Shown one piece after another: positions 5,923 to 34,509 of a DNA stretch of 64,000 nucleotides; position 1 is the first letter of the stretch, and every line of letters starts with the position of its first letter. The translations under genes were made by a program, and so were the position numbers. The stretch lies in NCBI RefSeq assembly GCF_000621125.1, contig NZ_JHZC01000015.1, forward strand, positions 1 to 64,000, read 5' to 3'. The notes below the pieces were generated by a model. That model had not been told where the DNA came from. It did no database searches and saw only the letters and a program-made list of their open reading frames with translations. The stretch is from Maribacter antarcticus DSM 21422 (lineage in GTDB: Bacteria; Bacteroidota; Bacteroidia; Flavobacteriales; Flavobacteriaceae).

Positions 5923-5967
5923 ATTCTCTTCTTTAGTTTAATGTGTATATAGATTTGTATTCAATTG

Positions 5968-7479
5968 TTATTCTTTTAGTTCTACTTGTGTATAGCCTCC
6001 CCGCTTTTTAAAATAAAGGATTAGAATAAGATATCCGATTGCCATTACCACTGGCAGCACTGCGGTACTGACCAAAGCACGGCCAGCGCCATAAAAGCCG
6101 GCTTGCTCAACCGGTGCCAAGTCTTCGTCCACATGTGTTTTTGCAAGGTTCCACCATTGACTGAGCGCACTTAGATTTTCATTACTTTCCAACTCGTTTC
6201 CCGTACTTTCCCAGCGTTCAATATCGGATGCCAATTGGTCGCCGTCGCTTTTTAAAATGGCTACTTTACTCCCGTCCAGTCCTTTTATCGGTTCAAAAAA
6301 TAAAAAACTGTTTTCATCATCTGCCTTATAACGATCATAGGTGTCCTTGGATTCTATTTCTATCTTTTTGGATGCAAAGTAATCCTGTTTATAGCCAATC
6401 CCGGGACCGCCCAATAGACCTGCGGACAGCATGCCTACGCCCCCAAGAATTCCCATGGTCACGGCACCACCTTTAGGAAAACGCTCCCCGACAACACCCA
6501 ACATGGTTGGCCAAAAAAATGATTTGGCAATCCCATAAATGGTAACGGCGAACACCATTACAAGACCTGTTGTGGAGTTGCCCAAAATATATAGGCCAAC
6601 AGCACCGAAAATAGAACAAACGAATAATAGGCCCAAGGGAGAAATGCGTTCAACTATAGGCCCTGCAAAAAAACGGAGTACGAACATTAGGGCGGATGCA
6701 TAGATAAAAAGCAACACCCCTTTAGTAGGGTTTTGAAGTATATTTCCTGTGATGTTCTGTATCCAACTATCGGTGCCCAGCTCCACATACCCTACCAATA
6801 CCATTAGGAACAAGAGACCTATCAATACCGGGGAGGCGAATTGCCGAAACATTTCCTTATACCTTATACCCGCCGCAATTGTTTCCGATACTGGGAATTT
6901 TTCCTTGAAAATAACAAACCCATAAATAAGTACCGGGATAAGGAAGAAACTCATTAGGACCTCCCATGGCACTAGACCATGAAAGGCAATGGTTAACAAT
7001 CCGCCTAAAATCATACCTCCCGGCCAACCGGCATGAAGGATGTTCAAGTAGTGTGTCTTTTCTTTGGGAAATAAGTTGGCAACTAAAGGATTTATGACCG
7101 ATTCACAGATACCGTTCCCGACTGCAAACAGGAACGTGCCGGAAAAGAGGCACCAATAGGCCGCTTCTTTACCCATAGCATCAAATACAAAAACGGTAAC
7201 GACCGTCACAATCAAAGAGAGAAAGTGGATAATAAAAGCCAGAACCAGTAGGGGTTTATATCCAACACGGTCTACGATAAGACTAAAAAGAATGATTATC
7301 ACCCCAAAACCAACAAAACCTCCTCCTGTAATAGAACCCAGTTCTGTCATTGTAAAGCCGAACTGGTTACCCCAATCAATTAATATTGCTCCCCGTACGG
7401 CAAAGCCTACACCTGCGGCCAAGATAGTAAAAAAACTTGCGAACAGTAATCGGCTTTTACTAACACTACTTTTTTCCAT
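5968..7479 (-). CDS. MFS transporter with a long loop before the last helix
   Basis: 503 aa, with about 12 hydrophobic segments arranged as two six-helix halves. The first helix begins at residue 10. The inter-helix 2-3 loop carries the MFS signature region (VDRVGYKPLLV). Between helix 11 (GILGGVGMLSAGLLGGPGIG) and helix 12 is a hydrophilic insert of about 100 residues, rich in D, E, K and S, which is unusual for a plain MFS sugar/acid symporter. It sits between the Tm-1-like and TIM-barrel genes on the same strand with short gaps, so it most likely imports the substrate of that pathway. The general fold resembles fucose/galactose-type permeases of Bacteroidota. Confidence 0.85.
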   Translation of the reverse strand: MEKSSVSKSRLLFASFFTILAAGVGFAVRGAILIDWGNQFGFTMTELGSITGGGFVGFGVIIILFSLIVDRVGYKPLLVLAFIIHFLSLIVTVVTVFVFDAMGKEAAYWCLFSGTFLFAVGNGICESVINPLVANLFPKEKTHYLNILHAGWPGGMILGGLLTIAFHGLVPWEVLMSFFLIPVLIYGFVIFKEKFPVSETIAAGIRYKEMFRQFASPVLIGLLFLMVLVGYVELGTDSWIQNITGNILQNPTKGVLLFIYASALMFVLRFFAGPIVERISPLGLLFVCSIFGAVGLYILGNSTTGLVMVFAVTIYGIAKSFFWPTMLGVVGERFPKGGAVTMGILGGVGMLSAGLLGGPGIGYKQDYFASKKIEIESKDTYDRYKADDENSFLFFEPIKGLDGSKVAILKSDGDQLASDIERWESTGNELESNENLSALSQWWNLAKTHVDEDLAPVEQAGFYGAGRALVSTAVLPVVMAIGYLILILYFKKRGGYTQVELKE

Positions 7480-7532
7480 TTTGAGTGAATCTAATTGATT
7501 ATTTACAATGGTTTGTTTGTTCTCTTGGTTCT

Positions 7533-8789
7533 TTATATTCCTCTACTTTTATCTATTAATTCTAACAATTCCTTTACTGCATATTCTGCAAAAAGAGCAG
7601 TGTTGATATTTGTGTTTACTTCTACTATTTTGACTGATTTATTTACATTTTTCCTTATCGAATCAAATAATACTTCATCTATTTTAGGGTCATGAAATAC
7701 TTCTCCTTCACCCCCAACTTTTGACAAGCCACCAAGAGGCAATAAAACGGTTACAGGGCCTTTTGCTATATTAATTTTATCAGTAATTATTTTTCCTAAA
7801 ATAGTATTTTCTTCAACATTTGTTCGCATTAGGGTTACATCGGGAGCCCAGCCAAATAAGTCTCTATTCTTATATTTTTCTGGTACAGTTGATAGCGTCC
7901 CAAAATTCACCATATCAATGCAACCTGGTACTACAACTTGCGGTATTCCTAGTTGCCCGGCAGCAGTCAAACGTTCAGGGCCTGAGCTACAAATTCCACC
8001 ACAAAGTTCATCGGCCAATTCAGTAGTTGTTAAATCAAGAATTGCATCAAAAACTCCATCTGAAGTCAACGCTTCCATAGTTGCACCACCGGTACCCACT
8101 GCATGAAAAGCAAGCACATCATATCCTTTTGATTTTAAAACTTGGATACAAGCATCAGCAGCAATCGTGGTATTTCCAAAAACACTAATCGCAATACTAC
8201 CCTTACTAGTATCATCTTTCTGAATGGTTGTTTCCATCATACCATATAAGGCACCTGCAGCCTGACTAATTATAACCCTGCTTATATTATTTAACCCAGC
8301 TACATCAACAATGGAGGGTATTAGAACCACGTCTTTATCTCCCACTTTTTTAGATAAATCTTTAGTAGCCAATGTGCTTATACAAATTTTAGGAATACCA
8401 AATGGAACTGCGTTGATCGCTTTTAGCGTCACAAAAGTTCCACCACCACCACCCATTCCTATAATACCATCTACCTTTCCTTCACCTACTAAATCAGCAA
8501 TAATTGATTCCGCTCCTTTCCCCATTAATTCTAAGGCCAACCCACGGTCATTACCTTCACGTATTTTTGAAAGTTCAGCACCCGCATTTAATGCAACCTT
8601 TTCTGCCCTGAAATTCACAGGAAAAAGGTTGGTTGTTCCCATTACTCCAGTATTTATAGTTATTACCTCGACACCTTTGCTAACTAAACAGGTATACATA
8701 TACTCAAAGTCTGCACCTTTGGTATCGAAACAGCCTACCATAACTACCGTATGATTCTTTGTTTCATATTTATTTGATAGTACTTTCAT
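7533..8789 (-). CDS. Tm-1-like ATP-binding domain protein (UPF0261)
   Basis: 418 aa from the ATG at 8789; an in-frame TTG 18 bases upstream (8807) is less likely. UPF0261 hallmarks: HTVVMVGCFDTKGADF at the N-terminus, the glycine-rich nucleotide-binding loop IIGMGGGGGTFVT, LATKDLSKKVGDKDVVLIPS, the second-half GNTTIAADACIQVL and VLAFHAVGTGGATMEAL, and a C-terminal LLPLGGLSKVGGEGEVFHDP. In tomato Tm-1 this domain binds ATP and blocks tobamovirus replication; bacterial members are metabolic proteins of uncertain reaction paired with PF09370 TIM barrels, as here. It is the first gene of the operon. A dead IS30 copy ends only about 35 bp upstream, which may have removed or replaced the original promoter. 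Confidence 0.85.
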   Translation of the reverse strand: MKVLSNKYETKNHTVVMVGCFDTKGADFEYMYTCLVSKGVEVITINTGVMGTTNLFPVNFRAEKVALNAGAELSKIREGNDRGLALELMGKGAESIIADLVGEGKVDGIIGMGGGGGTFVTLKAINAVPFGIPKICISTLATKDLSKKVGDKDVVLIPSIVDVAGLNNISRVIISQAAGALYGMMETTIQKDDTSKGSIAISVFGNTTIAADACIQVLKSKGYDVLAFHAVGTGGATMEALTSDGVFDAILDLTTTELADELCGGICSSGPERLTAAGQLGIPQVVVPGCIDMVNFGTLSTVPEKYKNRDLFGWAPDVTLMRTNVEENTILGKIITDKINIAKGPVTVLLPLGGLSKVGGEGEVFHDPKIDEVLFDSIRKNVNKSVKIVEVNTNINTALFAEYAVKELLELIDKSRGI

Positions 8790-8825
8790 TTTATTTTTAT
8801 TTTTCAAAAGCTGAAAACGCGGAGT

Positions 8826-9590
8826 TCAACCCATAAGTGCAACAGATTTACTTTTTAGGAATACAATAGGTTTGTTATAATTAAATTTTCTAATTGGTCT
8901 GTAATTTAGTAATCTTTCCACTTCTTTTATTCTTTTGACCGATACTTCTCTCAGGTCGATTTTCTTAGGGAAGAATCTTCTAACGACGCCTATCCTATTC
9001 TCTACCGTTCCTTTGTCCTGTGATGTGTATGGTCTCGTAAAATAGATTTTCACTCTTAGGTCTTCTGCGATTTTAATGTGTTAGGGAACTTCTTTTCCAT
9101 TATCGAAAGTTATGGTCTTTATCCAGGAAGAGCTGAAATTTATGAGTCTCTTGTTCATTTTTTCATACACTTCATCAGCACTTTTACTCTTTAATTTCTC
9201 GAGCATGGTTACAAGGGTCGTTCTATCTGTCATAACCAATAAAGCGGATTTATGATTACTTCCCATCATAAGGTCAACCTCGAAGTCCCCGATACGAAAT
9301 CTTTCCCTAACGACCTTTCGACGTTTGTCTATGCCGACGCGTCCTTTAATCGCACCCCTATTATCCTGGATATTACTGTGCTTTTGTCTGCGTCCGGTGT
9401 GACAATGATATGTCTTGGACTTTGCGTACCAGGCGATATTGCGACCGGCCGTGCGTCAACGTTTAGGGATGTTACGTTTGAGTTCACGACTTATGGCACT
9501 CTTGTTTACACCGATTTGAGCGCTATTTTATCATGTGTCAAGAACTTAGTGTATGCTATTGTTTATGGAGCTTAGCGTAAAAAAAAGCAC
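8826..9590 (-). pseudogene. Degenerate IS30-family transposase
   Basis: Minus-strand reading gives IS30 pieces in order: an HTH (IGVNKSAISRELKRNIPKR, followed by an in-frame TGA), a basic linker, the first catalytic aspartate region (RIGDFEVDLMMGSNHKSAL), ITFDNGKEV (second acidic residue region) and the C-terminal YFTRPYTSQDKGTVENRIG with the last catalytic Glu. A stop between about 9080 and 9054 separates DNGKE from the C-terminal domain, and the N-terminus is frameshifted. Several lesions make it inactive. It lies immediately upstream of the UPF0261 gene in the same orientation. The N-terminal boundary is approximate. Confidence 0.85.
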
Positions 9591-9886
9591 AAACGCTTTG
9601 GAAAGTCTTTATTTGAAATGCTATATACTGTTTTTCTTCTCTTTTTTAAACATAATGAGAACGTTGCACGGCGTTGGATATATTGTATTGATTCCATATC
9701 TATTATGTGCGAAAATTAGTAACACATCCGACCTTAGCCGATAGCATTTGTGACATGCATTTACCCTGCGGGCCACTATTGTTATAAAAATGAGCACAGG
9801 TATCGTTGCACAATTGGGTAAAGACCCAATAAATGGTGTAGTAGTCCTCAAATTTATTTTATGTGTTCGTAGTCCTTTTTTTTAGT
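9591..9886. other. Intergenic stretch without recognisable genes
   Basis: About 300 bp between the IS30 remnant and the kinase gene. Short open frames are present on both strands but have no recognisable domain or convincing start. I see no tRNA, no strong hairpin terminator and no long repeat. It may hold the original 3' end of the nucleoside operon and debris of the IS30 insertion. Confidence 0.4.
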
Positions 9887-10879
9887 TTATACTAGAATTT
9901 CACGTGCTTCCGTTAGTAGGGCTTTACGTACTTCCAGATTAATACCCAATGGTAATTGCGCCAAACCCAGAATACGCCGTAGAATTTCGATGGCCATAAA
10001 TTGTTTACACAAACCCTCATTTAGCGGCGCCAAATCAGTATACATTTTAAGTGCCTTTTCGATTAAGTCTTGGGGTTGAGCAGCCATTTTTAAATGCGCA
10101 AGGGTTACCCCTATCTCAAATTCAGGATCCCCGAAAAACGAAAATTCCGGGTCTATTATCTTAATTCCGTCACTTGTTTTTAACCAACTTCCCGGAAAAT
10201 AATCTCCATGCAATAAAGTCTTACCATCGCTTAAATAGCGGTTCCCTAGTATTTGAACCTTATCGTGTAATATCTTATCCTGCTTAAATTCCTGGCCTAC
10301 ACCCTTTAACCCTGGAAGGATTTCATCGAGGTCAAGACCATTTTCCTTAAGAAAGGGATAAATAAAGATATGCTCATGGTTTAATTTCCGCATTTCTTTG
10401 TTGGGAAGCTTTTTCTCGGTAGTATTAGAATTTATGCTGGTATGGAGTGTCGCTACAAAGGTCATGATTTTTTCCAGTTCCACATCTTCCAAAATTTTGT
10501 CTTTTTGATATAAGAATGAATAATCCACACCATCACCTAAATCCTCTAGGTTGAGCACATGGTTATCATTATCTACTCCCAACAGTTGTGGCATTTGTTC
10601 CCTTAACACATCATGAGCGGACACCAAGGTGTAGAACTCCGCCTCTCGCAGGGCACGCTCTATGGGAGCAGCCACATGGGGATATTTCTCCACATAAGCG
10701 CGACTTTGCTTTATAACGAAACTGCGTTCACCGGTTTTAACCCGAAGCGTAAAATTCATATTTCCCGCGCCGGGGATTTCCACAGCAATTATCATTTCGG
10801 TACCATGTAGCCAACCTTGTCCCTTTAGGTAGGACTCTAATACCGTTTTGTCCGTTGATAACTGTTCCGCTTTTTTCAA
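9887..10879 (-). CDS. Aminoglycoside-phosphotransferase-fold small-molecule kinase, methylthioribose-kinase-like
   Basis: 330 aa, cytosolic. The kinase core is complete: Lys57 in FVIKQ, catalytic loop LLHGDYFPGSW (Asp226) and metal loop IIDPEFSFFGDPEFEIG (Asp243). The DPEFxFxG form of the metal loop is characteristic of 5-methylthioribose kinases and close relatives rather than of true aminoglycoside kinases, which makes a ribose-like sugar the likely phosphate acceptor. It is the last gene of the SusC-SusD-ABC-nucleoside hydrolase operon, 19 bp after the hydrolase. Inferred reaction: phosphorylation of the ribose or modified ribose released by the hydrolase. It is not mtnK in the strict sense, because no mtnA or other salvage gene is nearby. 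Confidence 0.75.
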   Translation of the reverse strand: MKKAEQLSTDKTVLESYLKGQGWLHGTEMIIAVEIPGAGNMNFTLRVKTGERSFVIKQSRAYVEKYPHVAAPIERALREAEFYTLVSAHDVLREQMPQLLGVDNDNHVLNLEDLGDGVDYSFLYQKDKILEDVELEKIMTFVATLHTSINSNTTEKKLPNKEMRKLNHEHIFIYPFLKENGLDLDEILPGLKGVGQEFKQDKILHDKVQILGNRYLSDGKTLLHGDYFPGSWLKTSDGIKIIDPEFSFFGDPEFEIGVTLAHLKMAAQPQDLIEKALKMYTDLAPLNEGLCKQFMAIEILRRILGLAQLPLGINLEVRKALLTEAREILV

Positions 10880-10898
10880 AATTCTTTCTGTTTTCTGT

Positions 10899-11819
10899 TT
10901 ACTTTATAAGGCTGTCCATCAATTTTTGATGATAATCATATACCACATCATAACAATAGGTTACTGGAAACCCAACAGTTTTATCACATATCAAGTACTG
11001 CTTATACGTATTTTCCGGTGTATCCAAAAGCATATCGTTAGCGTGAATTTTTAGATGGGCATTCAGCTCTTCAATAACTAAATCTTCTGGCGCAATCAGG
11101 TAGTGACTTGCCAAGACGTCAAAAGGATTAAAACCGTTATCACCACTCACCAACCATTGTTGCAACCATGGCTGGGATTCTTCTGAAAGCCAATCATTTG
11201 CGGGACGGCCATTTTTTAATTCACCCAAATCCTTGGCCGTAAGCCAGACCTTATTAGAAATTTCAAACGGGCAGAGCACCACTTTTACACCATGCTCGAA
11301 TAGTACCCGAAAGGAATCGTTATCCAAATCGAAATTAAGGTCGGGGGCATGTCTGGATACCGGTTGACCGATTTTAAAGTACGAAGTGGGCGTACGCCTA
11401 CCCGCAACAAGAACTACTTCCTTTATCTGTGATTTTAGCTCTGGATACAGGAGCAATAAAATACCAATATTGGTTGCCGGACCTATCGCCATTATGCTCA
11501 ACACTTCATTTTTTAAGGCTTCTGCCAACGCTTCCACGGCTTCGTTGGTCACTACTTTTTTTAATCTTATTTTTTCTCCAGCACCTTTAAAAACCGGAAT
11601 TTCATAGGGTGCAAATTCAGTTGCCATTTTATTGCAAAGTCTGTAGGCATCATCAATTTTAGTGTTGCCAAAGACTGCACTAATCCCGTGTATCTTAATC
11701 GTATCTGCATAAAAAAGTTGCAGTATGGCGTAACCATCGTCTACATCGCTATAACCTTCTTTATGGTATCTTTTCATCCCTACGGAAAGGTCCGTATCTA
11801 TCCAAACATTTTTTTTCAT
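10899..11819 (-). CDS. Inosine-uridine-preferring nucleoside hydrolase family protein, variant active-site motif
   Basis: 306 aa from the ATG at 11819; the longer frame to 11843 starts with TTG and overlaps the ATPase gene. The nucleoside-hydrolase fold is clear: aspartates at the N-terminus, GNTKIDDAYR, IMAIGPATNIG, ELKSQIKEVVLVAG and a C-terminal NPFDVLASHYL (Asp234). The calcium-binding motif, normally a compact DTDxGxDD, is split here: Asp8 and Asp10 (WIDTD) are separated from Asp27-Asp28 (DVDDG) by an extra segment of about 12 residues. The usual His before the last Asp is replaced by Phe233. This points to a subfamily with altered specificity. It starts just after the ABC ATPase stop codon, so translational coupling is likely. 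Confidence 0.8.
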   Translation of the reverse strand: MKKNVWIDTDLSVGMKRYHKEGYSDVDDGYAILQLFYADTIKIHGISAVFGNTKIDDAYRLCNKMATEFAPYEIPVFKGAGEKIRLKKVVTNEAVEALAEALKNEVLSIMAIGPATNIGILLLLYPELKSQIKEVVLVAGRRTPTSYFKIGQPVSRHAPDLNFDLDNDSFRVLFEHGVKVVLCPFEISNKVWLTAKDLGELKNGRPANDWLSEESQPWLQQWLVSGDNGFNPFDVLASHYLIAPEDLVIEELNAHLKIHANDMLLDTPENTYKQYLICDKTVGFPVTYCYDVVYDYHQKLMDSLIK

Positions 11820-11824
11820 ATCAT

Positions 11825-12544
11825 TTAATTTAGGCTTTCCCAAAAATTAATTTCTTCCTGAACGCCCGTCGTAGTATCGTTTATAAATGCATTTTTGTCT
11901 TCGTAAACCTTAAGGTTTCCCGCTTTCATGAATCCTATTTTATCGCCTATTAATAAAGCTTCCTTCAGGTCATGTGTTATAAAAAGTGAGGTGATATTAT
12001 AAGTTTTGGTCAAATTCTGAAATAGCGTCTGCATCCGTTTTCTAGTTCCTGCATCCAAACTACCAAAAGGTTCATCCAACAATAATAAAGAAGGATTTGT
12101 GATTATTGCGCGCCCAAAAGAAACCCGTTGCCGTTGACCGCCAGAAAGTTGATTAGGCATTTTTGTAGCCTGCCCTTCCAATTCCAAACTGACAATAATT
12201 TTATCCACCTCCTCCGTTATTTTTGCTTGTGGTAATTTCTTTAATCGCAGTCCAAATGCAATATTTTCAAAAGCATTCAAATGAGGAAAAAGAAGGTCTT
12301 CCTGATATAGGTAAACGATATTACGTTTTTCAGGTTTTTTCAAAGTAACTGCTTCTCCTGCCAATAAAACTTCCCCATTATCAGGTTTAACAAGTCCTGC
12401 AATCATCTTCAACATGGTAGTTTTGCCACAACCCGATTTCCCTAAAATACTCAGGGTCTGATGCGCGTCCAAGGTGAAATCCAGATTTTTTACGACCTGT
12501 TCCTTCTTAAAACTTTTAGTAAGATTGCGAACTTCCAGAAACAT
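11825..12544 (-). CDS. ABC transporter ATP-binding protein (YnjD-like)
   Basis: 239 aa. All ABC motifs are intact: Walker A GKSGCGKTT (residues 35-43), signature LSGGQRQRVSFGRAI, Walker B LLLLDEPFGSLD and the switch His in FITHDLKEAL. A Q-loop is present at YLYQEDLLF. Size and sequence fit the small importer ATPases of the YnjD/thiamine/polyamine/iron class. Its start codon overlaps the stop of the upstream permease gene at 12544, showing tight operon coupling. It powers the two permeases encoded upstream. Confidence 0.9.
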   Translation of the reverse strand: MFLEVRNLTKSFKKEQVVKNLDFTLDAHQTLSILGKSGCGKTTMLKMIAGLVKPDNGEVLLAGEAVTLKKPEKRNIVYLYQEDLLFPHLNAFENIAFGLRLKKLPQAKITEEVDKIIVSLELEGQATKMPNQLSGGQRQRVSFGRAIITNPSLLLLDEPFGSLDAGTRKRMQTLFQNLTKTYNITSLFITHDLKEALLIGDKIGFMKAGNLKVYEDKNAFINDTTTGVQEEINFWESLN

Positions 12545-13326
12545 TAAATAGGGTTTTTAAATACATAGCGTTTATTGAAGTACAGTAATATAATAGGCGG
12601 AAAAATCAACAAACAACAGGCCAAAGCGCCATAATAATAATTGGATTCCTTTATGAATAGAAATACCTTGATGGTTAGCGTCTGTACTTTTCCTACGCCT
12701 ATTATAGAGGTTAGGCCATACTCAAACCAAGAAATCAAAAACGTTTGAAAAAAGCACATCAACAACATACTTTTTGCTAATGGTAAAATAACTTTTATGA
12801 ATTTTTGAACTGGACTACCGCCGAGCGTAGCAACCAAATCTTCATAACTGCGGATTTTTTTATTCCAAAAACTACTAAAAAAAAGCAGCGCATAGGGAAA
12901 GGCGATTAAAAACTGTGCAACTATTACACCAGTGATATTGCCAAATAATCCTAGTTTTAAGAAAAAGTAGCTAAGACAGGCCGCGAAAACTACCGGTGCC
13001 AATATATATGGAAAATAGGTCAATAGAGTAAGGACCCGCTTGCGGGGATGGTAATAGACCGTGCGGCTTAACAGAAAGCCTGTAAGGGTAGAAATGATGG
13101 CTACCGAAAGTGATATTATTAAAGAACTAAAAAAACTTTCCAACAATCCTACTTCGGAACCCAATATTGTGTTCCAATTGTTCAGCCCCATGTATTCTGG
13201 TATTAAATCAGGAAAACGCCAACCGCTCATAAATGATAGCAAGACCATAAAAGCGAATGGAAACAGTACTAAAATTACGAACAAACTTAGTATAAAAGGC
13301 TTCCAATTAAGTCTCATAGGCTCCAT
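12544..13326 (-). CDS. ABC transporter permease, second subunit
   Basis: 260 aa, six predicted membrane helices. The conserved inner-membrane permease EAA-type loop is visible as EDLVATLGGSPVQKFIKVILPLAKS, which contacts the ATPase. It overlaps the upstream permease (end 13307) by 20 bp and the ATPase start by one base, so the three genes form one transcript. In E. coli the corresponding YnjC is one double-length permease; here the two halves are separate proteins. Confidence 0.85.
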   Translation of the reverse strand: MEPMRLNWKPFILSLFVILVLFPFAFMVLLSFMSGWRFPDLIPEYMGLNNWNTILGSEVGLLESFFSSLIISLSVAIISTLTGFLLSRTVYYHPRKRVLTLLTYFPYILAPVVFAACLSYFFLKLGLFGNITGVIVAQFLIAFPYALLFFSSFWNKKIRSYEDLVATLGGSPVQKFIKVILPLAKSMLLMCFFQTFLISWFEYGLTSIIGVGKVQTLTIKVFLFIKESNYYYGALACCLLIFPPIILLYFNKRYVFKNPI

Positions 13327-14161
13327 GCTTTTTAGGTAAGAACAACATTATGGCGGCCAATGTAACTATTACCGTGTAGATTACGGCTGCTACGTACCCT
13401 TCGGATATTTTGGTTAAATCATACTGTTTAATCTCGCGAATGATTAGAACCGATAACATCTGTGGCGCTTCTTGTCCTAAAATCAAAGGAATCTCATAGG
13501 CGCCCAGTAAAAAAATAAAATAAAGAACGATAAGTACCCAAGTTTTCTGGAGCAGAATCGGCAAAAACACCTTGCGTACTACTTGATTTTTTTTTGCGCC
13601 TAGCGCCTGCGCGAGAATTGATAATTCTTGAATACGCTCATTTTTATAAACGTTCATAAACAGCAACACAAAAAAAGGCAAGACTATGGTCGTAAAGGCC
13701 AAGATAATACCAATGGCATAGGCATCATTGACCAAGTCTGGAAATTCTACTGTAGTTTCTGTCCATCCCAAATTATAGCTTATTCTAGAGAAAAATCCAC
13801 CCTTGGAGAACAACTGCAACGTAAAAAATGCGGCCACCACACCGGGAATTGCAAGCGGAAGGTAGGAGATATAGGAAAGAAACTTCCTCTCCAACTGATT
13901 TCTGAACTTTAGGATAATCCATAAGGCTCCGCCAACGGAAATAAGTAGGGAAATGAAGGCAATTACAGCACTATAAAGGAAGGATTTAAAAAACTCCCCC
14001 GAAGCAATAACTGCCTTCCAAAACTCTAGGGTAAACCCGGTGTTCACGACCCCGATAATGCCAAAACTATATAAAATTGCATACCCAAAAGCAGCAGCAA
14101 AAGGCACCACACCGATGAGGACAAATAAACCTAGGCTTATATTTTCAGATTTATTTTTCAA
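13307..14161 (-). CDS. ABC transporter permease, first subunit
   Basis: 284 aa with six hydrophobic segments. An EAA-type loop is visible as ELSILAQALGAKKNQVVRKVFLPIL near residue 180. It overlaps the binding-protein gene (stop at 14151) by 11 bp. It pairs with the 260-aa permease downstream to form the importer channel. Family: binding-protein-dependent transport system inner-membrane component, YnjC N-terminal-half-like. Confidence 0.85.
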   Translation of the reverse strand: MKNKSENISLGLFVLIGVVPFAAAFGYAILYSFGIIGVVNTGFTLEFWKAVIASGEFFKSFLYSAVIAFISLLISVGGALWIILKFRNQLERKFLSYISYLPLAIPGVVAAFFTLQLFSKGGFFSRISYNLGWTETTVEFPDLVNDAYAIGIILAFTTIVLPFFVLLFMNVYKNERIQELSILAQALGAKKNQVVRKVFLPILLQKTWVLIVLYFIFLLGAYEIPLILGQEAPQMLSVLIIREIKQYDLTKISEGYVAAVIYTVIVTLAAIMLFLPKKHGAYET

Positions 14162-15374
14162 TCACTTTTGTTCTAAAATCTTCGTATAAACGTATCATAT
14201 ATTCTGGTGCAGGTTCTGCAATGGCATATTCCGAAAGTTCTTCCAGTTTAATACCATATTGGCGACCGGGTGCGTTCTTAAATTTATCCTGCCATTGTTG
14301 TGGTAATTTTTTTACATCCAAGATAGTGTTAGAATCCATCCCGTTGGCCCTGGCCTTTTCAAATTGTGCTTCTGGTGATATCATAAAGTTTATGACCTGC
14401 ATAGCGGCCGCTTTTTCAGTAGCGTTACTTAAAATCCCTAAATAATTGGCGTTCTTTATGGTTCCGTTTTTCCAAGGATATGCTTTTGTGGTATTTGGGT
14501 AAAGGCCACTAGTAACACGTTCTTCAACACCACCTTCACTAAATCCATAGGTTATATTTACTTCACCGTTGGCAAAAAGTTGACTCATTATACTTTGTTC
14601 TTTAGGAAAAGTAGTTCCTTCTTTCCAAAAATACTGTTTATTCCCGTTCACCCAATCCCATAGCTGTCCACTTAGCTTAACATATTTATCTTCATCAAAT
14701 TCGCCATTAAGACTGGTTGGGCTTCCTCCCAATTCCGCAAGGAAACTTTTCATTAGCGTCATACCGGTAAAATCATTGGAAATGGTGAACGTTCCAGGAT
14801 GTTTTTTAATATAGGCTTCCAGTTCATCAAGTGTTGCAGGTGGGTCGTCAGCTTTTGTAGCATCATATACCATCGCAAACTGACCCATGCTCCAGGGAGC
14901 CTCCATACCTTTAATGGGCTGTTGAAAATCAGTACTGACAAACGGGTCATCAAAATTAATGTATTGGCTATTGGGCAGTTTTGATAAAAATGGGCCCCAA
15001 AGGGCATCTATGCTTCTTAATTGAAAAAAGGTCTCACCATTGATCCATACGATATCCACTTGACTTTCGGTAATCCCTGCCTGCCGCTCACTCATCGCCA
15101 GCTGAACAATCTCGGGCCCTTGACCACCACTTATTTGTAGGTTGACACCATACTCTTCCTTTACCGTAGGGATTATATAATTATTAATATACTCATTGAT
15201 GACCGGACTTCCCTGCCACATCATAAAATTGACCGTTTTACCATTGGTCGATTTTGAAATGGTTTCCCAATCTTCGGTTTTTAATGCCTGATTGTCTTTT
15301 TTGTTTTCCGAACCGCAACTTAAAAGTGCTGCACACAATATGACAACTAATACTATTTTCTTAATCATAAACAT
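14151..15374 (-). CDS. ABC transporter substrate-binding lipoprotein (YnjB-like)
   Basis: 407 aa with a lipoprotein signal (lipobox ALLSC). The mature part begins with the YnjB-type sequence SKSTNGKTVNFMMWQG and contains QVDIVWINGETFF, a hinge region, and NYLGILSNATEKAAAMQVINF, all typical of the extracellular solute-binding family that includes E. coli YnjB. It precedes both permeases and the ATPase, so the cassette is complete. The ligand of YnjB itself is not settled; the co-encoded nucleoside hydrolase and kinase suggest a nucleoside-like ligand here. Confidence 0.85.
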   Translation of the reverse strand: MFMIKKIVLVVILCAALLSCGSENKKDNQALKTEDWETISKSTNGKTVNFMMWQGSPVINEYINNYIIPTVKEEYGVNLQISGGQGPEIVQLAMSERQAGITESQVDIVWINGETFFQLRSIDALWGPFLSKLPNSQYINFDDPFVSTDFQQPIKGMEAPWSMGQFAMVYDATKADDPPATLDELEAYIKKHPGTFTISNDFTGMTLMKSFLAELGGSPTSLNGEFDEDKYVKLSGQLWDWVNGNKQYFWKEGTTFPKEQSIMSQLFANGEVNITYGFSEGGVEERVTSGLYPNTTKAYPWKNGTIKNANYLGILSNATEKAAAMQVINFMISPEAQFEKARANGMDSNTILDVKKLPQQWQDKFKNAPGRQYGIKLEELSEYAIAEPAPEYMIRLYEDFRTKVIEK

Positions 15375-15431
15375 CCTATTTTATTTAAAATGCGACCCTG
15401 AAAATTTATCCAAGGTCACAAGTCCAATACT

Positions 15432-16877
15432 TTACATTTCCCACCAATTTTTGATGTTGATATTATCACCTCCTATACGGGATACGGCGGCATCATAATT
15501 TACTTTGTTCGCGGCCTGTTCCGATTCAGGATACAGATATCGTGATGGGTATTGACCATCGTTAAAATTGTCAGACCCTGGCGTTAATGCAGGGATACCC
15601 GTACGCCTAATATTAAACCAAGCCTCATGCCCCACCATAAAAAGGCTGAGCCATTTTTGAGTTAGGATTTTTTCCAAATTTGCGTCCGTATTACCGTTTA
15701 AGGCAATAGCGCCCCTAGTAAAGTAATCCACAGGCACCTCTGTTCCATAATATGCAAAATGAGCCTGTATCGCATTTTGGTAATACGTTTGCGCATCCCC
15801 GGTTATGTAACTCCGTTCTGCTGCCTCTGCCAACGCAAACTGTACTTCTGAATACAACATGATTTGGGCATCTACACCATCTGCCCTAGTCCTAAATCTA
15901 TCGGACATTATGGAAATATCATTAAGAACAATACCCCGCTCGCTAATCGTTTGGGTACTCAGGCCATTTGGTAACCCCTTAAATTCAGGATTGCCTGCAA
16001 GAACACTCTCTGGTGTAGGATTAAAGAAAACTGCAATTCTGGGGTCATCCCAACCCTTTAGAATGGTCTCAACGGTTTCGCTCATTTTCAAGCCTTGATA
16101 AATACCTGTAGAAGCGCTAAACAATGGGAATTGGTTTGGTGCCCCACCTAGATAGGGTACTATCGCATTGTCTTCATTTGATTGCAAAAGTAAATTTTCA
16201 TCTGCTAATTGTTGCAGTTTACTAAAATCCGTTAATCGTTTACTAATACGCATACGAAAACGCACCTGAAGGGAATTGGAAAAACGTACCCATTTAGAAA
16301 GGTCATTACCGAACATGATATCTCCACGGATACTTTCGCTGGTATTCTGTAAAAGTGCAGATGCAGCTTCTAACTTAGCCAAAATCCCATTTTCCGGGTT
16401 GGTGTAGATACTTTCCTGCGTATCGTAAACCGGTGTAAAATTTAGGGCTTCGAATTTTATAGCTTCACTAAAGGGAACATCTCCCCATATATCAGTAAGT
16501 TGTGAAAAAAGATAGCCTCTTAAAATATCCGCTACACCATCGTAGGCATCGTTATATCCAGGTAAGGTTTTCATGGTCTCCAAGTCGGTCAGAAGTCCAT
16601 AAATGAGGTTCCAGTATCCACTGTTCCCCCCTAATTCATATCTGTCTATGCGCTCAAACTCAACATCCGCATTAAATTGTGCCAAATAATTATTCAGTCT
16701 TAATCCTTGATTATAAGTATTCTCATTGGTTTCCGCCGCAATAACGTTGGTCAACAAAAATTCTGGACTTACTTCCTGTGGAGCGTTTGGATTATCGTTA
16801 ATGGAATCAAAATCCTCCGTGCAGTTCGTAAAGAAAAGACAGGGTAAGAAAATCGATAAAAGTTGTAGATTTTTCAT
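15432..16877 (-). CDS. SusD/RagB-family nutrient-binding outer-membrane lipoprotein
   Basis: 481 aa with a lipobox (FFTNC). The sequence fits the SusD-like_2 subfamily: NDNPNAPQEVSPEFLLTNV at the mature N-terminus, SQLTDIWGDVPFSEAI, a TPR-like helical core, VQFALAEAAER, and the C-terminal ILTQKWLSLFMVGHEAWF followed by GIPALTPG. SusD proteins cap the TonB-dependent barrel and capture substrate at the cell surface. The gene lies 10 bp after its SusC partner and 57 bp before the ABC binding protein. Confidence 0.9.
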   Translation of the reverse strand: MKNLQLLSIFLPCLFFTNCTEDFDSINDNPNAPQEVSPEFLLTNVIAAETNENTYNQGLRLNNYLAQFNADVEFERIDRYELGGNSGYWNLIYGLLTDLETMKTLPGYNDAYDGVADILRGYLFSQLTDIWGDVPFSEAIKFEALNFTPVYDTQESIYTNPENGILAKLEAASALLQNTSESIRGDIMFGNDLSKWVRFSNSLQVRFRMRISKRLTDFSKLQQLADENLLLQSNEDNAIVPYLGGAPNQFPLFSASTGIYQGLKMSETVETILKGWDDPRIAVFFNPTPESVLAGNPEFKGLPNGLSTQTISERGIVLNDISIMSDRFRTRADGVDAQIMLYSEVQFALAEAAERSYITGDAQTYYQNAIQAHFAYYGTEVPVDYFTRGAIALNGNTDANLEKILTQKWLSLFMVGHEAWFNIRRTGIPALTPGSDNFNDGQYPSRYLYPESEQAANKVNYDAAVSRIGGDNINIKNWWEM

Positions 16878-16887
16878 TGGAATATTC

Positions 16888-19800
16888 TTAAAAATTTGTT
16901 TTTAGGCTTACACCAAAACTTCTAGTTGATGGGTACGAAAAGTCATCCACACCATACACGATATTACGTTCTTGTAGGGCATTGAGCTCCGGGTCAAAAT
17001 GTGGATTCTCCGTAAATAACAATAGGTTACTACCGATAAGACCTATTTTTAAATTCTCAACGCGTAGGTTTTTTGCTATTTTTTCGGGAAATGTATAGTA
17101 AACACTTAGTTGTCTAAGTTTTACATAAGAAGCATCATAAAGTGCACTGGCCTCATTACCACGATCATAAAATGCATTGTTGAACGTACTCGCAGCAACA
17201 GCCGTGGTATTTGGAGCGTACTGAGGATTTTCTGTAGTACCCACGTTTACCACACCATTACCGATTACACCGTTACCATCCACAAATTGGGTGGTATCCA
17301 AACCACCTTCACGACCCAATAATGTTTCTTGTAACACACCAGAAGTACTTCCCAAGGCTTTTATACGCGAAACGATGGTACCACCTTGTCGCCAATCGAA
17401 CAACATGGTAAAATCAAAGTTTTTGTACGAAAAACTGTTGTTGAAACCTATGGAGAAATCCGGGTTATAATTACCTAGTTTGCGAAGGTTCCCATCTTGT
17501 ATAGGTAAACCGTTTGCACCATAAAGATCTTGACCATTAATTTGCACAAAACCCGTACCATACATATCGCCTACCCTCCCACCTTCACGGGCAATATAGA
17601 AAACCGTATTAGAGCCACCACTTCCTGAAAATACACTTGCCGTAGCCGTTACAAATTGGTCTACCCCTTCCGGAAGTTCTGTTACCACACTTCTAAATGT
17701 GCTGAAATTTAAGGCCGTATTCCATGTGAAATCTGCGTTTTTAATAGGTGATGCGTTTAACATCAATTCTATTCCTCGCGTTCTTATTTTACCTCCATTC
17801 TCATTAAAACTTGCAAATCCGCTGGAATTAGATACTGGTCTAGAAATAATCTGGTCTTTACTGACATTTTGATATACAGAACCCTCAAACTGTATCCTAC
17901 CATTTAAAAACCATGCCTCAACGCCACCTTCATAGGCGTCTAAACGCTCTGGTTTAAGATTTGTATTCTTCAATACCGTTTCATTGGTTACCCTAAAGTT
18001 AGAGCCATAATTACCATTGAATTGAAAGGTTTGGGTATTCTGAAAAGGATCTGTATCATTCCCTACAGATGCCACACTTAATCTGAATTTTAAGAACGAA
18101 ATTGGGTCAGGAAGTTCTAAACTTTCTGAAGCAATGTAACTTAGACCTCCGGAATAATACCCAAAAGAATTACTGCCTTCTGGCAAAGTACTGCTCCAAT
18201 CATTGCGATAGGTTAAATCGATATATAATTCACTTAGATAATTAAAATTAGCCGTTCCGTACACACTGTTAATCCGTTTGTTAAAATTCTCACTGTTGCC
18301 TTGCAAAGGGGCTCTTGAGTTCGCTAAAGTATAAATCTCTGGCAAGGCAAGTTGGGAAGCTTCCGCATAGGCATAGTGAATTTTTTGATCTAAACGGTTG
18401 GCACCCGCCGTAAGGGAATACTCCCAATTACTATTTATTTTATTGTTGTATACAAATAAAAAATCTGTGTTCATTTCCGTAAAACGGATATTATCTTCCC
18501 TATAGGACCCAAAAGGGTTTGCATTGGTACTCACTGCCCTTCTAAATTCCCTATTGTCGTTATAGGTATCTAGTCCTGTCCGCACCTTTAGAGAAAGATG
18601 TTCAGAGAAATCATAGGTTGCGGATACATTTCCCAAAACGCGGTTCTTAGTATAACTATTCGTGTTTTCGTTTAGGGTAAGATATGGGTTGGTCAACCAC
18701 AGATAGTTAATATCGAAATGTTGACGGCCCACCTGGCCAGCCTGCCAATAATCCTTTAGAGCAGCAATATTTGTTTGGCGACCTGTCCAATTAAAACCAT
18801 ATAGTACATTCTCGTACCCGTAGCCCAAATTTGGACGATTACCGCTACGGGTATTGATGTAATTTACAAAGGTGTTTACCTTAAGATTTTCAGTTAAAAC
18901 CTGGTCAAGGCTCAATGCTAGTCCATCCCGTTTAAGATCTGTATTCGGTAAAATTCCTTCATTGCGCAAATTGCTGTAGGAGATTCTAGTACTCCCCTTG
19001 TCACTTGTATTACTAATCGCAATATTGTTTTGATAGGTGATACCCGTATTAAAAAAGTCTTTAACATTATCCGGTCTTGACACCCAAGGTGTAGGTGTTA
19101 TGTCCGTATACGAACCGTCTGGAAATGTGCGGGCAATTACATCGCCACCACGCACAGGATTGCCATTTATATCTACCGATTGACTATCGAATTGTGGAAT
19201 TAGAAGGCCAGTATTCAAACGTGGGCCATAGCTACTGATGCCCCCATCACCTATACCTGCGCCTACTCCGTTTTGAAATGCGTAGTTACCATTTGAGCCC
19301 AAACCGTATACATTCTGATAATCCGGTAGTGTTAGCAAGGTTTCAATAGTGAAATTACTATTGATACTTACCCCAAAACCTTTGGCCCGGTTTCCTCGTT
19401 TTGTAGTAATCAGCACTACCCCATTTGCAGCACGTGCTCCATAGAGGGCAGCTGAACCAGCACCTTTAAGGATGGAAATGGATTGAATATCGTCCGGACT
19501 AAATTCTGAACCTCCATTACCAAAATCGACCTCTTGTAAAGCTCCATTGTTGGCAAGATCACTTGTAATCTGTTCATTGCTAATCGGTACACCGTCTACT
19601 ACAAATAAAGGTTGATTGCTACCACTAAGGGAATTCTCACCACGAATTACAATTCTCGAAGAAGAGCCGACGCCGCTAGATCCATTGGTAATCTGTACAC
19701 CCGCTACTTGACCGGCCAAACTATTAACCAGATTTGTTTGTGAAACTGTTGTCAGTTTTTCAGAGTTTACCGTAGATACGGATGACACGAGAGCTCGTCT

Positions 19801-20139
19801 TGCCCGTGCTATACCTAAAGCGGTGACCACCACCTCGTCCAACTGTTCTTGGGAAGGGAATAAAGTGAGTTCGTTTGGCACATTACCCCTCACAACTTGA
19901 AAATTCAGCGTGCTAAATCCGATAGAAGAAATTTGAAGCGTAAAATCATCCAAGCTTGTTGTCAGACTGAAGGATCCATTTTCATCTGTAGTGGTATAAT
20001 TTAGAGTTCCTTCTTCGTATACAGCCGCATAAGGTATAGGTTGACCACTAGTATCTATAATTCTTGAATTATAGGTGTTTTGTTGTGCATACAGGGATAG
20101 TACAAATAATTGCATTGAAGCAATCAGTATTGATTTCAT
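16888..20139 (-). CDS. SusC/RagA-family TonB-linked outer-membrane transporter
   Basis: 1083 aa. A Sec signal ends near LSLYAQ, followed by a carboxypeptidase-regulatory-like repeat (residues about 25-95), the TonB-box/plug junction LDEVVVTALGIARARRALV, a plug domain with the RVVIRG-type motif (SRIVIRGENSLSG) and the conserved ILKGAGSAALYGARAANGV, then the 22-strand barrel ending in GVSLKTNF. It lacks an STN domain, so it is not of the FecR-signalling type. It heads the operon with SusD, the ABC importer and two enzymes. The upstream 77 bp contain an inverted repeat. Confidence 0.9.
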   Translation of the reverse strand: MKSILIASMQLFVLSLYAQQNTYNSRIIDTSGQPIPYAAVYEEGTLNYTTTDENGSFSLTTSLDDFTLQISSIGFSTLNFQVVRGNVPNELTLFPSQEQLDEVVVTALGIARARRALVSSVSTVNSEKLTTVSQTNLVNSLAGQVAGVQITNGSSGVGSSSRIVIRGENSLSGSNQPLFVVDGVPISNEQITSDLANNGALQEVDFGNGGSEFSPDDIQSISILKGAGSAALYGARAANGVVLITTKRGNRAKGFGVSINSNFTIETLLTLPDYQNVYGLGSNGNYAFQNGVGAGIGDGGISSYGPRLNTGLLIPQFDSQSVDINGNPVRGGDVIARTFPDGSYTDITPTPWVSRPDNVKDFFNTGITYQNNIAISNTSDKGSTRISYSNLRNEGILPNTDLKRDGLALSLDQVLTENLKVNTFVNYINTRSGNRPNLGYGYENVLYGFNWTGRQTNIAALKDYWQAGQVGRQHFDINYLWLTNPYLTLNENTNSYTKNRVLGNVSATYDFSEHLSLKVRTGLDTYNDNREFRRAVSTNANPFGSYREDNIRFTEMNTDFLFVYNNKINSNWEYSLTAGANRLDQKIHYAYAEASQLALPEIYTLANSRAPLQGNSENFNKRINSVYGTANFNYLSELYIDLTYRNDWSSTLPEGSNSFGYYSGGLSYIASESLELPDPISFLKFRLSVASVGNDTDPFQNTQTFQFNGNYGSNFRVTNETVLKNTNLKPERLDAYEGGVEAWFLNGRIQFEGSVYQNVSKDQIISRPVSNSSGFASFNENGGKIRTRGIELMLNASPIKNADFTWNTALNFSTFRSVVTELPEGVDQFVTATASVFSGSGGSNTVFYIAREGGRVGDMYGTGFVQINGQDLYGANGLPIQDGNLRKLGNYNPDFSIGFNNSFSYKNFDFTMLFDWRQGGTIVSRIKALGSTSGVLQETLLGREGGLDTTQFVDGNGVIGNGVVNVGTTENPQYAPNTTAVAASTFNNAFYDRGNEASALYDASYVKLRQLSVYYTFPEKIAKNLRVENLKIGLIGSNLLLFTENPHFDPELNALQERNIVYGVDDFSYPSTRSFGVSLKTNF

Positions 20140-20215: not shown

Positions 20216-20914
20216 TTAAACTGTTGGTGGTGCTCTAAGACCTACATAAGAATATCGGTTAGAAGACGGTATAAAATCATGGGAAATTGGAAAGTCGTTT
20301 TTTACAGATGCAATAATCGCGCGGAGGTACCTACTTAAAACTGTCCTTGAATTATTTTTAGCATAATAACGTGCATCCTTACGGGAATCAATATCAGTTA
20401 GTTCACAAAGTACATCAAATTTGATTTTTTGAGAGTCAACATAATTTTTAAGAACCTTTTTTAGGTTCGATGTTTGCCATGGCAGTTGCAAAAATACTTT
20501 TTTATCGAAAACATCCCTATTGATGCCTAACAGATAAAAACCCCCATCCCTGGATGGCCCAATAACCAATTTTTTAGTACTTAATTTTTGTATTGCTTCC
20601 TGTAGCAATCGAACACTAAGATCAGGGCAATCATTACCAATTGAAACTACATTTTTATAACCTGCATCAAAGAGTTTTTGAAAGGCGTTAGTAAATCGTG
20701 AGGAAAAACAACCCCCAGTTTGCTGGCGTTCGTCTATCCAAAAAACATCGATACCACTTTGCATCGCGAGCTTTCTAGTCTGTTCAATTAAAATATTGAA
20801 AAAAGTGGTATTCTCTTCTCTGGAATTTTTGTCAAAAAAGTACTTCCTTTCTATTTCCTTCTCTGCTGAAAGGGAAAAAACTAATAAGGCAGTATCTTTT
20901 TGATTCAAATTCAT
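20216..20914 (-). CDS. DUF2064 (TIGR04282-type) glycosyltransferase-like protein
   Basis: 232 aa, cytosolic. Family motifs: VVSIGNDCPDLS (nucleotide-sugar/metal site), LVIGPSRDGGFYLLGI and ELTDIDSRKDA. This GT-A-fold family was first named rSAM/selenodomain-associated transferase 1 and is now annotated in arsenosugar-biosynthesis loci. A 39-codon remnant of a flavin disulfide oxidoreductase sits divergently upstream. No arsM, arsS or second glycosyltransferase is seen, so the locus looks broken and this gene may be an orphan. It is on the same strand as susC, 77 bp upstream. Confidence 0.75.
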   Translation of the reverse strand: MNLNQKDTALLVFSLSAEKEIERKYFFDKNSREENTTFFNILIEQTRKLAMQSGIDVFWIDERQQTGGCFSSRFTNAFQKLFDAGYKNVVSIGNDCPDLSVRLLQEAIQKLSTKKLVIGPSRDGGFYLLGINRDVFDKKVFLQLPWQTSNLKKVLKNYVDSQKIKFDVLCELTDIDSRKDARYYAKNNSRTVLSRYLRAIIASVKNDFPISHDFIPSSNRYSYVGLRAPPTV

Positions 20915-21158: not shown

Positions 21159-21278
21159 ATGAAAAATAACGGATTTGACTTAATCGTCATTGGTACAGAA
21201 TCTGCAGGATTAGGCTCTGCTTTAGGCATGCTCAAAATGGGTATGAAAGTGTTGATGGTTGACGCTCTAAAACCCTGA
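21159..21278 (+). pseudogene. N-terminal fragment of an FAD-dependent pyridine-nucleotide oxidoreductase
   Basis: 39 codons from an ATG: a beta-alpha-beta dinucleotide-binding start (FDLIVIGTESAGLGSALGM, then KVLMVDA) that stops at a TGA just after the second strand. Functional homologues continue for over 400 residues. The usual glycine in GTGSAG is Glu here, a further sign of decay. After the stop nothing of the family is recognisable. It lies divergent from the DUF2064 gene. Confidence 0.7.
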
Positions 21279-21872: not shown

Positions 21873-22496
21873 CTAAGAATTCAAAACAGCATCCAAGGCA
21901 TCATCGGCATCCTTATGTATAAAATTTGCCTGATATAGAATCGTAGTTTTCAAAGCGCTATGGTGATATAGTTTTTGTAAAAGGGAAGGCGAGATGGCAT
22001 CTCCTGCAATATTCCTGAACGAATGGCGGGCAATATGATAGGTTAGGTTTTTGTTAACCCCACATTTTTCGGTAATCTCCTTTAGGTATTTGTTAAGTAC
22101 AGTGGTTCCATTACGGCTCTTAATAAATACATCTCGCTTGTTATTGGGATTCGCTTTTTTTAAATAAGGGAAAATATAATCGGCATTTGACCCATTTGAC
22201 GGTCTATAATACTCCAATATCTCCTTAGCTTGTTCCGGAACTTTAAAGCTCACAGGCTTTTCGTTTTTGTTCATGGTATAATAAAGGCGGCCGTCCAAGA
22301 GGTCTGACCATTTCTTTTGTAGCACATCCAAAATCTGGATTCTTACAAAATAATAGGAGAACAACCAAACATTACGGGTGTGCCACATGGCAAAATCTTT
22401 CTTCAATACCACATTTTCAATAAGTTTTATTTCTTCTCTTGTCAGTCCGATTTTTTGTGTTGGCTTTATTTGGACTTGCAACAAAAAAGTAGACAA
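21873..22496 (-). pseudogene. Tyrosine recombinase (integrase) C-terminal fragment
   Basis: 207 codons with no ATG start (first codon TTG). Catalytic-domain residues are present: Arg52 (VRIQILDVLQ), His154-x-x-Arg157 (HIARHSF), His178 or His179 (LYHHSALKT) and nucleophile Tyr188 (ILYQANF). The N-terminal SAM-like core-binding domain of about 180-200 residues is missing; its place is taken by an IS3 remnant starting about 20 bp upstream. The gene points at the tRNA-Leu half, the usual arrangement for an integrase next to its attachment site. Probably inactive. Confidence 0.75.
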
Positions 22497-22520
22497 TTTA
22501 GATAATAGTCATGCTGCTAT

Positions 22521-23022
22521 TTGTTAATTGTACATTTCGGTTTCAAATTCCTCTATGGTTTTATACCCCAATATGGAGTGCATCCTTCTTCTGTTGTACC
22601 AAGTTTCTATCCATTGAAAGACAGATAGCTCGCCTTCCAATCTAAGTCCATAGCTATGTTTGTATACCTATTCTACCTTTAAGCTCTTAAAAAATGATTC
22701 TGCCACCGCATTGTCCCAACAATTACCTTTTCTACGCATACTTTGTTTTACCAATCCACCATAACTTTTAATGATATCCGTAAATCTTTTCTTCAACTCG
22801 GCAATCTCACGTTGCGCGTCCGTGAGTTTCGGGTTCCCCTTACCCAGAAAACTGTTCTTCCCATAGGCACCCGATTCCCTGCGCCAGCGATTCAATACGG
22901 ATGTCGGTATATCCAGCTCCCTGCATATCTCTGCAACACGACCACGTGCATAACTTAGTTCCACAGCTTTTCCCTTGAACTCTACAGTGTAATCTCTCTT
23001 TTGTTCTTTCTGATTTATATCC
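22521..23022 (-). pseudogene. IS3-family internal-deletion derivative
   Basis: The frame 22668-22964 joins orfA (ELSYARGRVAEICRELDI, LNRWRRE, KGNPKLTDAQREIAELKK) directly to the end of orfB (GGLVKQSMRRKGNCWDNAV, AESFFKSLKVE), removing most of the DDE domain including its first two acidic residues. A TAG follows KVE, after which the normal orfB C-terminus (QWIETWYNRRRMHS, LGYKTIEEFETEMYN) continues in frame to about 22525. No ATG precedes orfA. It is a non-autonomous relic inserted into the integrase gene. Confidence 0.8.
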
Positions 23023-31922: not shown

Positions 31923-32055
31923 ATTTGATACTTTAATCATTAGAATTCTCTGATGCTCTGCATCGGAGGTATTAGAGGAAAGTTTGAAAACGGTTGGTTT
32001 TCATAAAATATTAAACTTTGTTCCGTTGAATACCTCGATGGCTCTGCCTCGAAGA

Positions 32056-33012: not shown

Positions 33013-33070
33013 ATGGGTGTTTTTTAAGAAGAGGGAGCGCATGTTTTGATACGCTCCCATCTTTAGAAAA

Positions 33071-34489: not shown

Positions 34490-34509
34490 TTTCTTTTGTT
34501 TTTTTTAAT

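Follow-up and report, generated by a model that had tools for sequence, protein, structure and literature searches.

Introduction

The closest described counterpart of the system reported here is Rus (BT2803-2809), a locus of Bacteroides thetaiotaomicron. Rus unites a TonB receptor and a SusD protein with a nucleoside hydrolase and a ribokinase. A nucleosidase followed by a kinase is also a described entry to 5'-deoxyadenosine salvage. DrdK, a relative of methylthioribose (MTR) kinase, converts 5-deoxyribose to the 1-phosphate and also accepts 5-methylthioribose (PMC6079011). Here, we describe an operon in the first 64,000 nucleotides of contig NZ_JHZC01000015.1 of Maribacter antarcticus DSM 21422. 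This whole stretch is called the window. The operon encodes a DUF2064 protein, SusC and SusD (together SusCD), and a YnjBCD-like ABC importer with a substrate-binding protein (SBP). A nucleoside-hydrolase-fold protein (NH) and an MTR-kinase-like protein complete the set, hereafter the NH operon.

In marine algae, arsenic occurs predominantly as arsenosugars (PMC7345539). Dimethylarsinylribosides are major arsenic forms of these algae and 5'-deoxy-5'-dimethylarsinyladenosine is a known marine nucleoside (PMC4278203). In arsenosugar biosynthesis a radical SAM enzyme, named ArsS in the title of the cited paper, adenosylates arsenic (PMC12159101). In Synechocystis, ArsS acts together with ArsM (PMC8552651). 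Among the open-licence papers listed, none described a gene for bacterial arsenosugar uptake. None linked arsenosugars or the NH gene set to SusD or to genomes of Flavobacteria. Since ArsS and ArsM make arsenosugars, and dimethylarsinyl ribosides and the related nucleoside occur in the sea, we considered scavenging. We tentatively propose, with slightly less than even confidence, that the operon serves SusCD- and ABC-dependent capture of a 5-modified ribofuranoside. This would most likely be a dimethylarsinoyl riboside of the arsenosugar type, or else the corresponding nucleoside, and would feed the late arsenosugar pathway.

Results

The hydrolase was located by scanning contigs of other genomes, which gave 52 loci. 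L054 (28% identical, E 2e-8) and L055 (21% identical, E 4e-7) were dropped, leaving 50 Bacteroidota loci that include metagenome-assembled genomes. Genes were counted as members when on the strand of the hydrolase and within 10.5 kb. SusC and SusD were each found in 46 of the 50 loci, and DUF2064 in 44 (45 under looser clustering). The kinase was present in 36, the SBP with both permeases in 28 and a radical-SAM gene, rSAM23, in nine. An initial annotation of the window had named co-travel of SusCD, ABC genes and hydrolase as its check. SusCD and the hydrolase do travel together; the ABC genes are more loosely attached. Gene order varies between DUF2064-SusC-SusD-ABC-NH-kinase, DUF2064-ABC-NH-kinase-SusC-SusD and ABC-NH-kinase-rSAM-DUF2064-SusC-SusD. 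Because the set recurs in 50 loci, chance association is excluded. Its persistence through rearrangement argues for joint function. Two variants (L119, L120) combine DUF2064, a 991-aa receptor-like protein and a kinase (46-49%) with a more distant hydrolase (31-32%). A further stretch (L121, 1780-9571) combines DUF2064 and rSAM23 with ABC genes of the YnjB type and a 1016-aa receptor-like protein; neither the hydrolase nor the kinase has a match there.

Export of the hydrolase was compared with the state of the importer in 55 loci: the 50 above plus L119, L120, L122, L123 and L124. Most likely L123 and L124 repeat L018 and L043, so that the 31 loci with ABC genes represent about 29 distinct ones. 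To call export signals we used a simple rule based on hydrophobicity rather than a trained predictor; 18 were called by script and those of L033, L049 and L120 by eye. Where the SBP and permeases were present, no hydrolase carried an export signal (0/31). Where they were not found, 21 of 22 hydrolases did. Two Pricia loci (L027, L031), which have the ABC ATPase only and a hydrolase with no export signal, were kept apart. On the hydrolase tree, the ABC state requires at least five changes and the export state six.

The origin of some export signals can be read from their likeness to neighbouring genes. The first 59 residues of hydrolase P0129 resemble the signal and mature N-terminus of the SBP (57% over 63 columns, 5e-24). 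The first 44 residues of P0130 resemble the N-terminus of SusC (66% over 44, 9e-21). Hence, both signals appear to have been taken from operon neighbours by signal-peptide capture; both are database proteins seen outside their genomic context. In loci known to have no ABC genes the likeness to the SBP is weaker (L006, 49% over 47, 6e-6; L041, 50% over 20, 5e-4). Because the hydrolase has an export signal where the SBP and permeases are not found, the importer probably carries the hydrolase's substrate. The simplest account is that hydrolase and substrate have to meet: in the cytosol if the ABC importer delivers the substrate, and in the periplasm if not. This covariation points to the importer's cargo, whatever the substrate may be.

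Next to this, the hydrolase itself constrains the substrate. It belongs to the nucleoside hydrolase superfamily (PF01156, 98.2 bits; cut-off 34.2). Its AlphaFold2 model (pLDDT 88.6) retrieved nucleoside hydrolases in all rows shown by Foldseek and VIA-align. No other family was among the matches listed, which in itself proves nothing. Alignment with E. coli RihA places D16, D35/D36, the GPATN motif (GPxTN) and D242 in register, and the ribose-site Asn is kept. The HGxxGL base loop is absent, and Phe stands in for the His that precedes the last Asp (HD to FD). In addition, the E of 'AEFN' is D and 13 residues are inserted after DTD. We take the roles of these residues (calcium-site Asp, base loop, His, ribose-site Asn) to be as in RihA. 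The NCBIfam cut-offs for RihA, RihC and ribosylpyrimidine nucleosidase, the canonical base-recognising types, are all missed. Thus, the protein looks like a competent riboside hydrolase whose aglycone site has been rebuilt. Ordinary nucleosides look unlikely as substrates because the base loop and His are missing.

Scavenging of ordinary nucleosides or ribose, as in Rus, is the reading that the hydrolase fold and the gene content of Rus would suggest first. We consider it quite improbable. Besides the altered hydrolase, no PfkB-type ribokinase was found by Pfam among the ten proteins scanned, and the kinase is of the APH/MTR kinase type. We also know of no ArsS link for Rus, and count this against the reading. 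Accordingly, of the nucleosides or modified nucleosides named by the initial annotation, the modified ones may still be the substrate. Ordinary ones are also disfavoured by the DUF2064-SusC-SusD module common to ArsS clusters, described below.

Although it falls short of the S-methyl-5-thioribose kinase equivalog TIGR01767, the kinase is most like MTR kinases. Its profile matches only two PDB sequences, 2OLC (methylthioribose kinase) and 2PYW (listed as uncharacterized). We take 2PYW to be a plant MTR kinase. The MTR-kinase-like marks HGD...DPEF and a C-terminal twin Arg (RRxxGLA) are present, and invariant in 16 aligned kinases. For the fate of the product we turned to 48 NH-operon genomes (L042 and L049 left out), or 49 with the host added. 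The MtnA-type isomerase PF01008 had no match in 48 of the 49, host included, and matched nine of 14 control genomes. Therefore, a 1-phosphate made by the kinase would have to go elsewhere. The kinase family, together with the nucleosidase-plus-kinase logic outlined above, fits salvage of 5'-deoxyadenosine or methylthioadenosine via kinase, isomerase and aldolase (the dihydroxyacetone phosphate shunt or methionine salvage). However, the isomerase result, and the lack of any aldolase among the operon's genes, largely refute this very improbable route.

A connection with arsenic came from the DUF2064-SusC-SusD module. The host has a second such operon, on contig C5, which includes ArsS (TIGR04167, 431 bits; cut-off 300) and a symporter-like protein (TIGR00813, below cut-off). 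In 18 ArsS stretches fetched from other genomes of the host's order, a short DUF2064 with SusC and SusD clusters with ArsS in five (L104, L108, L111, L114, L116). Four more (L103, L107, L109, L113) have DUF2064 with no recognised SusCD, and nine have neither. A purine nucleoside phosphorylase (PNP) homologue occurs in ten of the 18. The window's DUF2064 falls below the cut-off of the arsenosugar glycosyltransferase family TIGR04282 (104.5 bits; cut-off 134) and lacks the N-terminal K-T/S-R-L motif. The transport-associated DUF2064s of NH and ArsS operons form one clade with no KTRL (55 rows), apart from 17 canonical proteins that have it. Among SusDs, those of L104 and L108 branch beside the NH-operon proteins; other ArsS-cluster SusDs, including that of C5, branch apart. 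Consistent with this, the window's SusD is 50% identical to those of L104 and L108. The best other host SusD, on contig C4 and with no DUF2064 close by, reaches 42%, and the C5 protein 40%.

Location also links the two systems. One chromosomal slot, between TetR and c15, is occupied by the NH operon in nine loci from Zobellia, Cellulophaga and Maribacter, and by ArsS in the host, L105, L109 and L112. In genome G133, whose NH operon has no kinase, a kinase paralogue (MTRK 129 bits; cut-off 275) lies inside a TIGR04283-DUF547-PNP-TIGR04282-rhodanese cluster. Its neighbour is a lipoprotein resembling ADP-ribosylglycohydrolases (52 bits, below cut-off). In L122 the entire NH operon adjoins rhodanese, TIGR04282, TIGR04283 and DUF547 homologues. 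Such a lipoprotein (52 bits, below cut-off), next to an MTR-kinase-like kinase within a TIGR04282/TIGR04283 cluster, is encoded at 9528-10829 of L125, and perhaps represents a second riboside hydrolase family in this setting. Salvage of queuosine, thiamine or alpha-ribazole was also considered, and was dropped because the DUF2064/ArsS association points elsewhere.

Counts across genomes extend the association. Among 246 genomes of the host's order, 22 have ArsS over cut-off, 30 canonical DUF2064, 17 short DUF2064 and four the hydrolase (E up to 1e-60). All 22, all 17 and all four fall within the 30 canonical-DUF2064 genomes. The hypergeometric probability for 17/17 is 2e-18, with relatedness ignored. 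ArsS or short DUF2064 occurs in 28 of the 30; six of the eight with no ArsS have short DUF2064, and G014 and G026 have neither. In the 48 NH-operon genomes, TIGR04282 is over cut-off in 45, TIGR04283 in 46 and ArsS in 11. The arsenosugar ArsM family (AsSugarArsM, NF038099) is over cut-off in nine of 49, all of them ArsS-positive; G268 and G274 match weakly, below cut-off. Of the 14 controls, only Synechococcus elongatus matches ArsS and TIGR04283 at E 1e-40.

These counts allow a second interpretation. The substrate could be another 5-modified, non-arsenical riboside, with TIGR04282, TIGR04283 and PNP forming a general riboside-glycosylation route that ArsS feeds in some genomes. Indeed, 37 of the 48 NH-operon genomes lack ArsS, and 34 of these 37 keep TIGR04282. 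The scarcity of AsSugarArsM agrees with it, as do the lack of arsenic genes within the operon and the radical-SAM gene found with the kinase in the nine rSAM23 loci. However, DUF2064-SusC-SusD and the chromosomal slot are repeatedly common to ArsS, and we judge this interpretation unlikely. The arsenic step is drawn from association, and another 5-modified riboside would fit almost as well.

The layout in the window is given in Table 1. All eight genes listed by the initial annotation are open reading frames on the reverse strand at 9887-20139. Their families agree with Pfam and NCBIfam assignments. That list had missed a conserved DUF2064 gene, which precedes SusC by 76 bases, and a radical-SAM remnant. 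From SusC onward the gaps are 10, 57, -11, -20, -1, -19 and 19 bases (negative values are overlaps). An ATG near 11819 is the probable start of the hydrolase, since the database protein P0121, which matches 97% of the query at 100% identity, is 306 aa long. Cys20 of the SBP is invariant in 20 aligned sequences; a PDB sequence search with the SBP gave no match. The radical-SAM remnant is 63% identical to L040 (E 3e-12, with two short stretches as the search space). In it the third Cys of CxxxCxxC is Phe, after which the frame breaks. An intact rSAM23 gene occupies the same position in L004, the nearest locus on the hydrolase tree. The operon's last gene has therefore been lost in the host. The system was called complete; its eight genes are open, but this radical-SAM gene, kept by nine of 50 relatives, is broken.

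Table 1. Features of the NH operon and its surroundings in the window, with the host's second DUF2064-SusC-SusD operon
Feature	Position	Strand	Evidence and remarks
DUF2064	20216..20914	-	transport-associated subfamily, K-T/S-R-L absent; leads operon; Pfam PF09837 84 bits
SusC/RagA TonB-dependent outer-membrane channel	16888..20139	-	TIGR04056 607 bits, cut-off 368; CarbopepD_reg_2/Plug/TonB barrel (Pfam)
SusD lipoprotein (SusD-like_2)	15432..16877	-	Pfam PF12771 309 bits
YnjB-type ABC substrate-binding lipoprotein (SBP)	14151..15374	-	SBP_bac_8; NF008633 (PRK11622 family) 345 bits, cut-off 203
ABC permease 1	13307..14161	-	PF00528 (BPD_transp_1)
ABC permease 2	12544..13326	-	PF00528 (BPD_transp_1)
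ABC ATPase	11825..12544	-	PF00005 (ABC_tran)
Predicted nucleoside-hydrolase-fold riboside hydrolase (NH)	10899..11843	-	PF01156 IU_nuc_hydro; no export signal
Methylthioribose-kinase-like sugar kinase	9887..10879	-	PF01636 (APH); MTRK TIGR01767 108.4 bits, below cut-off 275
Radical-SAM gene (rSAM23) remnant	9748..9852	-	35 aa matching L040 residues 5-39
Transposase-like remnant	8840..9300	-	ends approximate; downstream of radical-SAM remnant; by eye in three-frame translation of 8830-9620
Second DUF2064-SusC-SusD operon	host contig C5, 188101-197400 (L067, L068)		ArsS, phosphoesterase/TIGR04169 protein, symporter-like protein

The transposase-like remnant is presumably of the IS30 type. Upstream of the operon, at 21873-22964, a fragment of the phage integrase family (PF00589, 32 bits) lies together with a short frame that, by eye, resembles a transposase. 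A likeness to FAD oxidoreductases on the forward strand near 21200, also seen by eye, was dropped when tblastn gave no match. Elsewhere in the window, 5062-8807 on the reverse strand encodes a PEP_hydrolase-like protein, an MFS transporter and a UPF0261 protein in a row. The region 31008-37968 encodes a SusD-family protein (33071-34489), a 1152-aa frame (34510-37968, SusC by position only) and two GDPD+DUF4996 proteins.

Discussion

Our data are consistent with a dedicated route that takes a riboside from outer membrane to cytosol, cleaves it and phosphorylates its sugar. The initial annotation had put forward such a route, and this part of its reading is supported. Briefly, SusD and SusC would carry the riboside across the outer membrane and the YnjB-type importer would move it intact into the cytosol. 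There, the hydrolase would cut the glycosidic bond and the kinase would phosphorylate C1 of the freed sugar. The sugar-1-phosphate would be the same kind of product as PNP would give in ArsS clusters, and could enter the TIGR04282/TIGR04283 'arsenosugar' branch. DUF2064 and the radical-SAM protein may contribute. Organisms with neither ArsM nor ArsS would obtain the intermediate from outside. A single back half thus seems to draw on either of two sources, the ArsM/ArsS front half or the NH operon.

A fuller version of this proposal is possible, if doubtful. It holds that the operon is dedicated to uptake and reuse of arsenosugars. Bacteroidota with no ArsM or ArsS would import these whole, cleave them, phosphorylate C1 and run the second half of the pathway. 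The hydrolase and kinase would replace the phosphorylase. Where the ABC importer was lost the hydrolase would have become periplasmic, in some cases by capturing a signal peptide.

Several observations weigh against an arsenosugar route, or against parts of it. The kinase is absent from 14 of 50 loci and the SBP and permeases from 22. In L010 a different TonB receptor (Pfam OMP_b-brl_4) replaces SusCD; a frame of the same length stands at that place in L019, apparently also replacing SusCD. One locus (L009) has neither SBP and permeases nor an export signal on the hydrolase. Across well-supported branches, a mean of 2.9 of three independent pairs change in the same direction and none in the opposite one; with a median p of 0.25, these are too few for significance. 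NH-fold enzymes are known for N-ribosides; algal arsenosugars are O-ribosides. No arsenic-specific gene was found in the NH operon itself, and the reason for an importer in an ArsS cluster is unexplained. AsSugarArsM was not found in the host genome though ArsS is present, nor in any of the 14 controls, including S. elongatus.

The genome counts carry the same caution. TIGR04283 in 46 of 48 genomes stands without a background rate for the order. Among same-family genomes with no NH, 19 of 38 (hand count) already have canonical DUF2064. Hence, the enrichment in NH-operon genomes is partly a family trait. The comparison of 45/48 with 19/38 (Fisher 4e-6) used two different detectors and ignored relatedness. 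We came across no experiment behind the 'arsenosugar' names given to TIGR04282 and TIGR04283. If the proposal is nevertheless true, arsenosugar uptake, as part of marine arsenic cycling, gains a concrete, testable gene set, and functions could be assigned to the DUF2064 paralogues, the YnjB-type importer and an unnamed NH subfamily.

The NH operon shares parts with four known systems. Its importer is like enterobacterial YnjBCD in having an SBP over the PRK11622 cut-off, two permeases and an ATPase. We take PRK11622 to be YnjB. To our knowledge the YnjBCD substrate is not established, and we know of no further part in common. DrdK-DrdI-DrdA and the MTR kinase of methionine salvage share the kinase family and the nucleosidase-plus-kinase logic, but their isomerase and aldolase steps have no counterpart in the operon. 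The ArsS clusters (C5 and the five stretches above) have the same transport-associated DUF2064 and SusCD, and in several genomes the same slot. They differ in carrying ArsS, the TIGR04169 protein, and symporter-like and metallophosphoesterase-like proteins where the NH operon has ABC, NH and kinase genes. Coupling SusCD to a hydrolase and kinase is known in principle from Rus. Like the NH operon, Rus joins a TonB receptor and SusD to a nucleoside hydrolase, a sugar kinase and an inner-membrane transporter. However, Rus uses a ribokinase and a single-gene transporter; the NH operon has an ABC importer, an MTR-kinase-like enzyme, DUF2064, sometimes a radical-SAM gene, and a remodelled aglycone site in its hydrolase.

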